Below, in pieces: positions 6,832 to 10,641 of a stretch of DNA of 64,000 bases. The stretch lies in contig NZ_CP042288.1 of the NCBI RefSeq assembly GCF_022559625.1, positions 1,326,409-1,390,408 of the forward strand. Direction: 5' to 3'. This DNA comes from Aquisalinus flavus (GTDB lineage Bacteria; Pseudomonadota; Alphaproteobacteria; Caulobacterales; Parvularculaceae). A program made the translations under genes and the position numbers. The notes under the pieces are model-generated. The model did no database searches. It had not been told where the DNA came from and saw only the letters and a list, made by a program, of their open reading frames with translations. Numbering within the stretch: position 1 is the first letter of the stretch; the number at the start of each line of letters is the position of its first letter.

Positions 6832-7884
6832 TTATTTTGCTGTCGGGAGATAGACCGGCAGGTCTGCGTCGCCGCGATGACTGATCGTGACAGTCGTGCC
6901 CGGCTCGCCATCGCTTAACTCGATGACACCGAGCAGATTCTTGGCGAGGGCTTCGACAATGCCGCTGCCCAGCCCTGCCTTGGGCGCCGCGCTGCCAACG
7001 GGCATGCCGATCCCGTCATCGCTTACCGACAGCGTCCAGTCGTCACCGGAAGCGTGATAGTCGATGGCAATCGTGCCATGCCGCTGATCGGGAAAGGCAT
7101 GTTTGAGGGCGTTTATCACCAGTTCGGTGACGATCAGGCCGAGGCTGACGGAGATGTCCGGGCCGACGGTGCTGTCATCGACAGTCACCGATATCGAGAC
7201 CTGGTCGGGGTCAGCGATCATCGAGGCACCCAGGCTTCTGGCAAGCTGCGTGAAATAGGTCCGCAATTCAACATTGGCGCCATTGGAGGAAGAGAGCTGG
7301 CGCTGCAAGGTCGCGATCGACATGACCCGCTGATGGGCGCTTTCCAGCTGGCCGCGCGCCTCCTCGGACTGAACCCGGCGCGCCCCCTGCATGAGAACGC
7401 TGACGATGATCTGGAGGCTGTTGGCGACGCGATGCTGGATCTCCTGCATCAACAGCGCCTTTTCGCGAAGAAGGTCGTCCTTTTGCCGGGTCTCGGAACG
7501 GGCGACGCTAACATCGGTTACCGCCAGCAGAAGCCGGATATGGTCCTTGTCGCCATCGTCGAGCGTCCGCGCATTGACGACCAGTTGCTGTATCGGCCGG
7601 TCGGGCCGCTTCAGGTCTATTTCGTAGGCTTCGATCTGCGCCTTCCCGGAGGCGGTCGCGGCAAGCAGCGAGGCGAGCGTGGGCATGGCCCATTCGCCAT
7701 CGCCCAACTCGGCCAGCAGACTGCCGGACACGGTTGCAGGGTCGATGCCGAAAGCGCTGCAAAACGAGCTGCTCGCGGCAATCACCCTGAGATTTTCGGA
7801 GAGGAGAAGCAGCGGCTCGTGCGATGATACCACGACGGCAAGAGTGCTCGCTGCTTCGAAATGTTCAGTCGTATAATTTGACAT
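6832..7884 (-). CDS. Sensor histidine kinase, PAS plus HisKA_2/HWE-type
   Basis: The 350-residue protein has a PAS-like N-terminal half (about residues 20-125), a HisKA_2 H-box EIQHRVANSLQII with phospho-accepting His151, and an HATPase domain with an N-box (ELVINALKHAF) and G-boxes (DDGIGM, GLGSGIV). No membrane segments are visible, so it is probably cytoplasmic. No response regulator lies in the window, so it is an orphan. Kinases of this class often feed alphaproteobacterial stress or light signalling, but the PAS region lacks the NCRFLQ flavin motif of LOV sensors. The chosen start (7884) drops a 14-residue extension lacking family similarity and has AGGGA upstream. Confidence 0.85.
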   Translation of the reverse strand: MSNYTTEHFEAASTLAVVVSSHEPLLLLSENLRVIAASSSFCSAFGIDPATVSGSLLAELGDGEWAMPTLASLLAATASGKAQIEAYEIDLKRPDRPIQQLVVNARTLDDGDKDHIRLLLAVTDVSVARSETRQKDDLLREKALLMQEIQHRVANSLQIIVSVLMQGARRVQSEEARGQLESAHQRVMSIATLQRQLSSSNGANVELRTYFTQLARSLGASMIADPDQVSISVTVDDSTVGPDISVSLGLIVTELVINALKHAFPDQRHGTIAIDYHASGDDWTLSVSDDGIGMPVGSAAPKAGLGSGIVEALAKNLLGVIELSDGEPGTTVTISHRGDADLPVYLPTAK

Positions 7885-8425
7885 TGGATGGTCCCTAATG
7901 GACCGGAGACCTGCGGTGCAGGTCATGGCTCGGCAGAACGCTTAGGTCACAGACCTATGGTTGACGCACGACGCAATAGTATCATCGACAGTACCAGCAA
8001 GCCAGACAATTCTATTGCGAGGGCCGCCGCGCACCTCCGGACAACGCAGGACAGCAGCGAGAGCACCGCCAGCCATGGCTGCGGTGATGGAATTGATATC
8101 CGCCGTCGCCAAGGCTCGGCGCGAGAACCCGCTTACGCCCTTCGGGCTTCAGCGCGGCTAGGAGGGGGCCCGTGGGAGCGCTACGGCCCCATAAGCAAAA
8201 ATCCAAGTGTAGGTATAGCCTCACGCTCCGCCATTCTGCTTAGGCGGGGGCGATGTTCTGGTACAGGGCCGATACGCGGCTCACCCGTCCGGGGCGCTAA
8301 ACCCCGAAACACCGCTCCGGCGGACGATGCGAAGCTTGCGCACACCCTCTCATGCCACCGGAAACCTGATGGAATGGCTTCAGCGACCGGTTATCGCCTC
8401 CACACATCCCCTGCCCCGATCCGCA

Positions 8426-8519
8426 CCGGGACGATTGGGAGTATAGGCGGATTGGGCGGCGCGGGGATAAGTTTGGGAGAGTTTGTAGTTTCAAGTTTGT
8501 AGGGCGGGTGGAGCGAAGC
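8426..8519. repeat. Decayed ~93-bp repeat, copy B
   Basis: Partner of 6637-6728. The shared block is ccggg-cgattg-gag-ata-cgg-ggg-cggggataagt with scattered substitutions. Its end overlaps the left arm of the long palindrome at 8499-8583. Confidence 0.55.
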
Positions 8520-8583
8520 GATACCCGCCAAGATGCGAAAGCCATGATCGGCTGGTATCGCCTGTCGGCTCCACCCGCCCTAC
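8499..8583. repeat. Long REP-like palindrome
   Basis: A 15-bp arm gtagggcgggtggag (8499-8513) is repeated as its exact reverse complement at 8569-8583. Inner arms gcgatacccgcc (8518-8529) and ggctggtatcgc (8550-8561) also pair with one mismatch. The whole element can fold into an ~85-base cruciform or hairpin. It resembles bacterial intergenic REP elements in form. No other full copy is visible in the window. Confidence 0.75.
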
Positions 8584-8749: not shown

Positions 8750-9541
8750 ATGGAAATAATAACTTCGGGGCAATATGACCTCATATACAATGCCTTCTCT
8801 TTCGCATTTGCGACTCTCGCTGCGGCGACAATATTTTTCTGGTTGGGCCGAAGTCAGGTCGCTCCGCAGTACAAATCTGCAATGACAATTACAGGTCTCG
8901 TGACCTTCATTGCGGCATATCATTACTTCAGAATATTTGAGAGTTGGGGAGCGGCGTATGACGTCTCCGATGGCGTAGTCACAACCACCGGTTACGCGTT
9001 CAATCAAGCCTACCGTTATGTAGACTGGTTCCTCACCGTACCATTACTACTGGTTGAACTCATTCTTGTCATGGGACTGAGCCGGTCGGAAACCATTTCT
9101 CGTGCGTTGCGACTAGGCATTCTGGCAGCGCTTATGATCGCCCTCGGCTATCCCGGCGAGGTTGCAGAAACCGTCACCGCGCGCTGGATCTGGGGCATCG
9201 CGTCTATGATTCCGTTCCTCTGGATAGTGTACGAACTCTTTGCCGGTCTGTCCAAATCCATTGCGAGCCAGCCTGAAGACGCGCGCGGCCTCGTGAAAGC
9301 CGCACGATACGTCGTCGTAGGTAGCTGGGCATTCTATCCGGTAGTCTACTTTGCCGGTGCGGTAGGCCTCGACAGCGCCGCAGCGACCGTTATCGTCGAA
9401 GTGGGCTACACCATTGCAGACATAACTGCCAAAGCGGTTTTTGGTGTGTTGATCTTCATGATCGCCCAGAGAAAAAGCGCTTCCTACTTTGAAAGCCATA
9501 AAGCGCCAGTTGAGAAGGCGGCGGTGCGCCCGACAGCATAA
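8750..9541 (+). CDS. Xanthorhodopsin-like proton-pumping rhodopsin with predicted carotenoid window
   Basis: A 263-residue, seven-helix microbial rhodopsin. Helix C reads RYVDWFLTVPLLLVE: Asp92, Thr96 and Glu103 match the proteorhodopsin triad (D97, T101, E108) of outward proton pumps, and Leu100 matches the green-tuning Leu105. Helix G has Lys228 for the retinal Schiff base, with Asp224 four residues before (D227-K231 in GPR). His58 matches the helix B His partner. The B-C loop is long and helix E reads RWIWGIAS. Gly149 aligns with Gly156 of xanthorhodopsin, where GPR has Phe and bacteriorhodopsin Trp, so a carotenoid antenna could bind. GGGAG lies six bases before the ATG. Codons are more A/T-ending than in neighbours, suggesting transfer. 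Confidence 0.95.
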   Translation: MEIITSGQYDLIYNAFSFAFATLAAATIFFWLGRSQVAPQYKSAMTITGLVTFIAAYHYFRIFESWGAAYDVSDGVVTTTGYAFNQAYRYVDWFLTVPLLLVELILVMGLSRSETISRALRLGILAALMIALGYPGEVAETVTARWIWGIASMIPFLWIVYELFAGLSKSIASQPEDARGLVKAARYVVVGSWAFYPVVYFAGAVGLDSAAATVIVEVGYTIADITAKAVFGVLIFMIAQRKSASYFESHKAPVEKAAVRPTA

Positions 9542-9555
9542 CATCGCCACGAATA

Positions 9556-9580
9556 CACTGCCCGCAGATGGCGGGCAGTG
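9556..9580 (+). promoter_or_regulatory. Intercistronic hairpin between rhodopsin and blh
   Basis: A perfect 10-bp stem cactgcccgc/gcgggcagtg encloses a 5-base loop, 14 bases after the rhodopsin stop. No T run follows (next bases are tccccc), so it looks less like a terminator than like an mRNA-stability or processing hairpin. That could give more rhodopsin than blh message. The role is inferred. Confidence 0.6.
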
Positions 9581-9622
9581 TCCCCCTCGTTGTCATATTC
9601 GCCCCGTCCCGGAAGGAAGATC

Positions 9623-9718
9623 ATGCAAATTGCTCTGAACTCAAACGACGGACCGATCACAAAGTCTATGCACGGCGCTGTCGTAGGCCACTTTTTCGAC
9701 ATTCTTTTTCCGGAATGA
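9623..9718 (+). CDS. Putative 31-residue leader peptide coupled to blh
   Basis: An ATG at 9623 follows a strong ribosome binding site (GGAAGGA, 9611-9617) at suitable spacing. The frame runs 31 codons, starting MQIALNSNDG and ending HFFDILFPE, and stops with TGA at 9716-9718, which overlaps the blh ATG at 9715 as ATGA. The blh start itself has only a weak binding site. This arrangement suggests translational coupling: ribosomes ending the small frame reinitiate on blh. I do not recognise the peptide. It could be functional only as a translated leader, or a remnant of a longer gene. Confidence 0.5.
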   Translation: MQIALNSNDGPITKSMHGAVVGHFFDILFPE

Positions 9719-10641
9719 CAATCGCCCCGGTCTGGCAGACTTTTTTGTTCGGTTCATGTGCTTGCGTCGCTATTGCCATGCAGGCGACAATGGATCTCAA
9801 TCCTTCATCCCAGTTTCTTATTCTGGCGCCGCTTATCGCCGTCTTCGGCCTGCCTCATGGAGCACTGGACCTTCCCATCGCCGAACGCTTGTGGCCGCTG
9901 GAAGGCGTATCCGGAAAACTGAAATTTATTGCAAGCTATGTTGGCCTCATCCTTCTGGTAATCGCTGTGTGGCTGGTCGCGCCGGGAGTCGCGCTGTCTG
10001 CGTTTCTCGCCTATTCGGCATTGCATTTTTCCGGCGATTGGGCAGGCACGGCCGCGCCATTGCGCTGGGCAGGCGGTGTTGCCGCCATCGGCGCCCCGGC
10101 ATTGCTGCACCCCACGGAAGTCACAGCCCTTTTCGGCCATCTTGCTCCACTGCCTGCTGCAGCGATTGCGGCAGATGCAGCTGCACTTGCCGGAGCACTG
10201 GCAATCATACCGTTGGCCCTGACCCTCGCGATCAGGAGGAGACTAAGTCAACCGGTCATAGAATTGATGATACTCTGGATCGCTGCATGGTTGCTTCCAC
10301 CGCTGCTGTTCTTCGGCATTTATTTCTGCAGCCTGCACTCTATCCGCCACTATCGTTCTTCAATCCGCCGCATGCCAAGTGCCAGGCGCGCCTTGTTCAC
10401 GGCCATCGGTCTGTCGAGTATCGTTGCGCTGGCTGGAGTGAGTTTTGTTCTCGTGCGAAGCGTCGCCGATCCGGCGGTCCCGTTCGAATTGGGATTACAG
10501 GCGGTCTTTATAGGACTGGCAGCCTTGACCGTACCGCACATGATACTCGTTGAACGCTTTGATCGCCGCCTTTTCGTGACGAGGGTTGGCCAAAAAAATA
10601 CGGGTGACGGGATTGAACCGCTTCCACCCGTCTCTGCTTAA
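9715..10641 (+). CDS. blh: Brp/Blh-family beta-carotene 15,15'-dioxygenase
   Basis: Blh cleaves beta-carotene into two retinals, the chromophore of the upstream rhodopsin. The 308-residue integral membrane protein carries the family's histidine motifs, thought to bind iron: GLPHGALDLP, YSALHFSGDW, YFCSLHSIRHYR and TVPHMILVERFD, spread over about eight hydrophobic helices. The ATG at 9715 is chosen because the residues from MTIAPVWQ onward start the first hydrophobic helix. An in-frame ATG at 9568 falls in the loop of a hairpin and would add a charged, family-unlike extension. No carotenoid-synthesis genes are in the window, so beta-carotene must be made elsewhere in the genome. Confidence 0.92.
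   Translation: MTIAPVWQTFLFGSCACVAIAMQATMDLNPSSQFLILAPLIAVFGLPHGALDLPIAERLWPLEGVSGKLKFIASYVGLILLVIAVWLVAPGVALSAFLAYSALHFSGDWAGTAAPLRWAGGVAAIGAPALLHPTEVTALFGHLAPLPAAAIAADAAALAGALAIIPLALTLAIRRRLSQPVIELMILWIAAWLLPPLLFFGIYFCSLHSIRHYRSSIRRMPSARRALFTAIGLSSIVALAGVSFVLVRSVADPAVPFELGLQAVFIGLAALTVPHMILVERFDRRLFVTRVGQKNTGDGIEPLPPVSA

Follow-up and report, generated by a model that had tools for sequence, protein, structure and literature searches.

The rhodopsin encoded in the 64,000-nucleotide stretch of Aquisalinus flavus DNA analysed here (the window) is best explained as an Octadecabacter-type (subgroup II) xanthorhodopsin, and it probably works as an outward proton pump with retinal as its only working chromophore. 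The original prediction had proposed, from a glycine at position 149, that a carotenoid antenna may add blue-light capture to a green-absorbing pump. The glycine was confirmed, but the antenna claim was not supported: the carotenoid slot, the lock threonine pair of Gloeobacter rhodopsin and the Kin4B8 residue Ser208 are all replaced, and judged by these residues an antenna is unlikely. In the proposed mechanism, green light would isomerise retinal bound to Lys228, Asp92, together with His58, would accept the Schiff-base proton, and Glu103 would return one from the cytoplasm. Blh would supply the retinal by cleaving beta-carotene from the host crtB/crtI/crtY pathway, and Gly149 would leave a gap beside the retinal ring. 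In known antenna rhodopsins a groove holds the chain and ring of the carotenoid; here almost all of its tested positions differ, so that an antenna of any known type is not to be expected, and we infer retinal-only operation.

The open reading frame gave a single Pfam match, Bac_rhodopsin (PF01036; 131 bits, E 5e-38). Among PDB sequences it matched psXR (1.5e-72) and xanthorhodopsin (XR; 6.4e-72) best, followed by Gloeobacter rhodopsin (GR; 3.2e-69) and Kin4B8 (2.1e-66), with thermophilic rhodopsin (TR) also among the nearest; these matches are far beyond chance. At E 0.001 the search of the host genome turned up no further rhodopsin. The functional residues of the original prediction (His58, Asp92/Thr96/Glu103, Leu100, Asp224/Lys228 and Gly149) all stood where it had placed them when the translation was read. 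The proton acceptor Asp92, Thr96, the green-type Leu100 and the proton donor Glu103 were shared with each of the five PDB relatives examined, and His58 is presumably the partner of the acceptor.

The predicted model of the protein (mean pLDDT 93.9) contained seven helices, and the long helix B-C loop that had been noticed earlier was modelled as a beta-hairpin (strands 70-73 and 76-79). Overlay on XR, one of the checks proposed with the original prediction, gave an XR-like predicted fold (3ddl; Z 34.3, rmsd 1.4 over 247 residues), and the model also matched zeaxanthin-bound Kin4B8 (8i2z; Z 32.9, rmsd 1.7 over 249 residues) and GR (6nwd; Z 31.6). The seven helices, the retinal lysine and the Asp/Thr/Glu residues of a microbial rhodopsin proton pump were thus all present, and the protein grouped with XR, GR and Kin4B8 over other rhodopsins and had the B-C hairpin of the xanthorhodopsin family. 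Published work on relatives is consistent with a pumping role: two Octadecabacter xanthorhodopsins with the glycine were reported to cause light-driven acidification, with maxima at 533 and 535 nm (PMC3646047). Sequence, predicted fold and these relatives together support the proton-pump and green-type assignments of the original prediction, and by analogy the protein would be a light-driven outward proton pump.

Features of the rhodopsin locus and associated genes (window positions unless stated otherwise)
Feature	Coordinates	Strand	Remarks
PAS + HisKA_2 histidine kinase	6832-7926	-	
Xanthorhodopsin-family proton-pump rhodopsin	8750..9541	+	263 aa, ATG to TAA; from ORF, Pfam, PDB matches and model
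His58 codon	8921..8923	+	residue read from translation
Asp92 (9023-9025), Thr96 (9035-9037), Leu100 (9047-9049), Glu103 (9056-9058)	9023..9058	+	
Gly149 codon	9194..9196	+	GGC; equivalent of XR Gly156, GR Gly178, Kin4B8 Gly153
Met153 codon	9206..9208	+	Thr in XR, GR and Kin4B8
Helix F slot: Tyr187, Val190, Gly191, Ala194, Val198	9308..9343	+	XR: Leu194, Leu197, Ala198, Gly201, Ile205
Ring-site stretch Tyr200-Phe201-Ala202-Gly203-Ala204-Val205	9347..9364	+	Ala204/Val205 = Kin4B8 Ser208/Tyr209
Asp224 (9419-9421) and retinal-binding Lys228 (9431-9433)	9419..9433	+	residues read from translation
blh (retinal synthesis)	9568..10641	+	PF15461 126.6 bits; TIGR03753 167.9 bits, over cut-off
crtG-like gene	L105:13598-14413 (host genome C1:379597-380412)		divergent from crtY; fatty-acid-hydroxylase family

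A histidine kinase with a PAS domain lies about 0.8 kb from the rhodopsin gene, which raised the alternative of a light sensor that signals via this kinase and is not a pump. Such a role has been proposed for the AAP5 protein, whose operon includes a kinase (PMC7762795). When 89 loci were searched, a homolog of this kinase was found near two, L045 and L053, which do not belong to the nearest relatives. With the kinase on the opposite strand and the pump residues complete, a sensor was rejected as the most likely role, and we regard it as extremely improbable.

A phylogeny of rhodopsins, also proposed as a check of the original prediction, placed the protein in a Rhodobacteraceae-type clade. 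The tree comprised 93 sequences (the A. flavus protein, five PDB proteins, 83 relatives and four outgroup sequences); because the relatives had been narrowed to the best 80 of 144, sequences close to the query are over-represented. Left out were the partial L101 and L102, L001/L002 (the query itself) and the minus-strand xanthorhodopsins of L020-L023, and the structure alignment covered 48 of 78 relatives at <88% mutual identity. The A. flavus protein fell in a clade of 34 sequences (99/92; hereafter the query clade), in which the identical proteins of L017 and L091, whose contigs are equally long, are probably one gene counted twice. Its nearest kin were Rhodobacter calidifons M37P and a Loktanella MAG (100/99). 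The sister clade of 50 sequences (99/85; hereafter the Sphingomonad clade) held Sphingomonas, including S. glacialis, as well as Sphingorhabdus, Brevundimonas and Caulobacter. The tree carried a long-branch warning, with the placement of XR itself at 94/62.

The grouping with Octadecabacter came through an Octadecabacter-labelled MAG in the query clade (L029), whose protein is 71% identical to the query; this MAG stood in the tree for the genus. The two subgroup II proteins of O. arcticus and O. antarcticus, compared through the published description of their sequences, resemble the query in having the Gly156 equivalent together with a changed slot (PMC3646047). Other labels in the query clade were Roseobacter, Devosia, Geminicoccaceae, Gemmatimonadaceae, Gammaproteobacteria and others, a mixture that indicates wide horizontal transfer. 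Among genomes of the host family, two carried xanthorhodopsins 61-65% identical to the query, one falling with the Sphingomonads (L003, genome G054) and one in the query clade (L004, genome G058); the family has therefore acquired such genes more than once. Three further family genomes (G050, G053 and G055; loci L005, L006, L009 and L012-L016) held two to three other rhodopsins, 28-33% identical to the query.

The protein is of a kind already known, its subgroup or nearest relative having been described in PMC3646047, PMC3832224 (Spiribacter) and PMC9231093. The last of these names an Aquisalinus flavus homolog 82% (212/257) identical to the M37P rhodopsin. We likewise counted 212 identical residues between the query and M37P (82.49% in tblastn; 212/258 alignment columns), and by this count the query is probably the homolog named there. 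The M37P protein (L024) shares Met153, Phe201, Ala204, Val205 and Gly149 with the query. Its pocket was judged from a homology model to be able to take a second chromophore, and the same report noted pigment spectra like those of salinixanthin and asked for work on the purified protein and for HPLC (PMC9231093). A limited literature search found no binding test of the query rhodopsin, and none of hydroxylated carotenoids or beta-carotene on its clade.

Alignments agreed in placing Gly149 at the position of XR Gly156 and GR Gly178, as the original prediction had claimed, and at that of Kin4B8 Gly153. In GR, the G178W substitution abolishes carotenoid binding (PMC9151804), and in Kin4B8 a bulkier residue at Gly153 blocks zeaxanthin binding (PMC12308411). 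Glycine alone is nevertheless insufficient for an antenna, since the Octadecabacter proteins have it and bind no salinixanthin: salinixanthin bands were reported as lacking from them, while GR showed them (PMC3646047). Vollmers et al. (2013) drew attention to changes at the XR slot positions Thr160, Leu194, Leu197, Ala198, Gly201 and Ile205 (PMC3646047). The query matched XR at none of these six (Met153 and the five helix F residues of the table), whereas the solved relatives matched at four (GR, Kin4B8 and TR) or five (psXR). In the 33 relatives of the query clade the score was zero in 23 and one in 10, and in the Sphingomonad clade its median was four (exactly four in 41/50 sequences); the score tells the clades apart, though its power to predict carotenoid binding is unproven. 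The helix F position of XR Gly201 had Gly in all five PDB proteins, in 50/50 sequences of the Sphingomonad clade and in 0/34 of the query clade; the query has Ala194.

When both GR threonines of the lock motif, Thr179 and Thr182, were replaced by Gly, the binding ratio fell from 87% to 19% (PMC9151804), and in the query these positions are Ile150 and Met153. The query thus has the fold, pump residues and glycine of XR (3ddl) and GR (6nwd), which bind 4-keto carotenoids, but differs at all six XR slot positions and at both lock threonines. Met153 lies four residues past Gly149. A Thr there is not indispensable, because the S. glacialis proteins (L056 and L078) have Ala at this position. A bulky side chain filling the opening at Gly149 had been named at the outset as what would speak against an antenna; Met153 and Phe201 may in part provide such bulk.

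Kin4B8 (8i2z) shares its fold and the equivalents of Gly153 and Tyr204 with the query, but its Ser208, Tyr209 and Thr157 correspond to Ala204, Val205 and Met153. Thus the polar ring anchor for 3-hydroxy carotenoids formed by Ser208 and Tyr209 is absent. In Kin4B8, S208A keeps 2% of wild-type zeaxanthin binding, and with Y209F energy transfer drops to about 18%, compared with about 40% before the change (PMC12308411). The ring-site residues of XR and GR are also apolar, yet these proteins bind 4-keto carotenoids (PMC12308411).

Gly149 was kept in 31 of the 34 query-clade sequences, a retention that could mean that the glycine is used. The other three have Trp (L046:6001-6771, L088:5977-6732 and L094:5971-6732) and group together inside the clade (97/88). 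Most subgroup II members of Vollmers et al. have Trp (PMC3646047), unlike the 3/34 seen in this query-centred sample. Among 150 GR homologs, only Trp or Phe occurred as single substitutes at GR position 178 (PMC9151804). A site with two such states need not point to a ligand; the way the retinal ring packs could explain it too.

The pigments available to the pump were examined in the host genome, which is 92.75% complete, so that absences are not final. The host has crtB, crtI and crtY together, with a fatty-acid-hydroxylase-family gene next to crtY in divergent orientation, and crtZ elsewhere. The same layout is found in the nostoxanthin producer Sphingomonas elodea, in which crtG is divergent from crtY, crtI and crtB and crtZ lies outside the cluster; crtG homologs carry sterol desaturase or fatty acid hydroxylase annotations (PMC3324416). 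The divergent host gene had no NCBIfam match at E 0.01. By position and distribution it is probably crtG: matches were found in 13/13 Sphingomonad-clade hosts searched and in 0/8 query-clade hosts. The match in the L050 genome (Erythrobacter sp. QSSC1-22B; G411:C2:423436-424176) contains one in-frame TGA. Host CrtZ shared 44% identity across the alignment, and 48% within the local match, with the product of the gene beside crtB in a Pantoea carotenoid cluster. Judged by this CrtZ and the crtG-like gene next to crtY, the host can probably make zeaxanthin and perhaps also nostoxanthin.

A keto-carotenoid antenna was rejected, as no 4-ketolase was found in the host at this completeness. CrtW scores reached at most 30 and 26 bits, where the cut-off is 350, with no match at E 1e-5, and CrtO gave no sign, because the host has a single protein of the crtI family TIGR02734 (E 1e-10). 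CrtW matches occurred in 4/13 Sphingomonad-clade hosts, all under the cut-off. Bacteriochlorophyll-based phototrophy was not indicated either, the host genome giving no Photo_RC match; the species of M37P, in contrast, is an aerobic anoxygenic phototroph (PMC9231093).

These pigments bear on a second reading, in which the pump carries a hydroxylated xanthophyll of the host (zeaxanthin, caloxanthin or nostoxanthin) at Gly149, anchored unlike in Kin4B8, and passes blue-light energy from it to retinal. The conserved glycine and the S. elodea-like gene layout (PMC3324416) agree with it. Moreover, salinixanthin was the only pigment reported as tried on the Octadecabacter proteins (PMC3646047), and the xanthorhodopsin of Sphingomonas glacialis AAP5 is reported to bind nostoxanthin (PMC12308411), although position 153 is Ala in the S. 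glacialis type. That type (61-62% identical to the query), found in hosts that likewise carry CrtZ and the crtG-like gene, belongs to the sister clade; it keeps the helix F Gly and has Tyr at query position 204, both of which the query lacks. Against a xanthophyll antenna stand the Ala/Val pair at the Ser208/Tyr209 equivalents, where S208A nearly abolishes zeaxanthin binding by Kin4B8 (PMC12308411), the helix F Ala, and the distribution of CrtZ. With host CrtZ as the query, all 13 Sphingomonad-clade hosts matched and none of 13 query-clade hosts besides A. flavus did. A 13-row CrtZ profile run over 32 other query-clade genomes, some of them small or fragmentary MAGs, matched in four (the hosts of L004, L033, L046 and L091) and not in 28; among hydroxylases, this survey of the relatives covered the CrtZ type, as distinct from the P450 and CrtR types. 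CrtZ is thus scarce among these hosts, and the clade therefore mostly evolves without such pigments. Since some of these MAGs are small or fragmentary, and rhodopsin clade and host kinship are themselves linked, the pairing of CrtZ with rhodopsin clade is an association only. A. flavus is one of the few hosts with both CrtZ and a slotless rhodopsin; the L046 genome has CrtZ despite Trp at the Gly149 position. On balance we consider the xanthophyll reading unlikely.

Retinal as the only working chromophore, the reading preferred here, is served by the gene next to the rhodopsin. The first ATG of blh lies 26 bases downstream of the rhodopsin frame, and its true start is perhaps Met50 (position 9715), since the Pfam match starts at residue 90. 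Many relatives in the query clade have the order rhodopsin, a gap of ~1 kb, crtI, crtB, crtY and blh; for M37P, a polyprenyl synthetase was described as the first gene after the rhodopsin (PMC9231093). In the window, blh follows the rhodopsin directly, and host crtB, crtI and crtY are about 0.95 Mb away. The M37P blh is 52% identical to that of the query but is separated from its rhodopsin by crtI, crtB and crtY. Octadecabacter rhodopsins likewise sit in a fuller gene cluster, whereas the query has blh alone beside it; several retinal-synthesis genes clustered with the rhodopsin are a reported property of subgroup II and not its definition (PMC3646047). At the search sensitivity used, a rhodopsin-blh pair alone was seen also in L046 and L091 of the query clade.

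The pair looks horizontally acquired, with unusual codon composition. The rhodopsin has a GC3 of 0.58 and blh one of 0.57, which puts both among the four lowest values in 43 non-overlapping open reading frames of at least 200 aa, a set that includes some unlikely to be genes. The same rhodopsin type was found in none of five other genomes of the genus, one of which has a 34% relative, and a plasmid collection yielded two Polymorphobacter rhodopsins at 59% and nothing closer. Identity of blh was 52% and 50% to the genes of the two nearest relatives, 33-52% across the rest of the query clade and 25-37% in the Sphingomonad clade. Rhodopsin and blh probably entered the genome as a unit, taken from a Rhodobacteraceae-type cassette whose carotene genes did not come along, a transfer and direction that we infer from these comparisons. 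A promoter and terminator scan around the pair gave a promoter-like count near the shuffled mean and was not used. Just upstream of the rhodopsin lies an inverted repeat (8499-8583) with perfect 16-nt arms 53 bases apart; its 22-base core occurred at five places in the genome with up to two mismatches and at none in a reversed control, and it looks like a dispersed intergenic repeat.

The cassette order also bears on an alternative in which beta-carotene itself, without modification, binds at the apolar opening and serves either as antenna or as an intermediate in delivery. The ring site is indeed apolar, crtI, crtB, crtY and blh follow the rhodopsin in many relatives, and CrtZ was not found in most hosts searched. 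Kin4B8, however, does not bind beta-carotene (PMC12308411), and the residues of the chain slot are changed as well, which leaves this reading very improbable. In more general terms, an open glycine gap without the known slot might be a third kind of site, retained for docking a ligand that is neither a keto- nor a hydroxy-carotenoid. The simplest such ligand would be unmodified beta-carotene, which the typical operon of the clade yields and from which its retinal is made, for antenna function or for retinal loading; we give this idea a slim chance.

Glycine at the XR 156 position serves as a marker of antenna rhodopsins (e.g. PMC13043013). The query gene and its clade are natural counter-examples, in which glycine is present in 31/34 sequences, the groove is changed and CrtZ was not found in 28/32 hosts. 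If no pigment is bound, counts based on the glycine only would overstate antenna phototrophy; should a pigment turn out to be bound in this clade after all, what is known of the requirements for an antenna would be incomplete. A. flavus provides a natural test of the two, as a host seemingly able to make nostoxanthin-type pigments and yet carrying a rhodopsin of the slotless clade.
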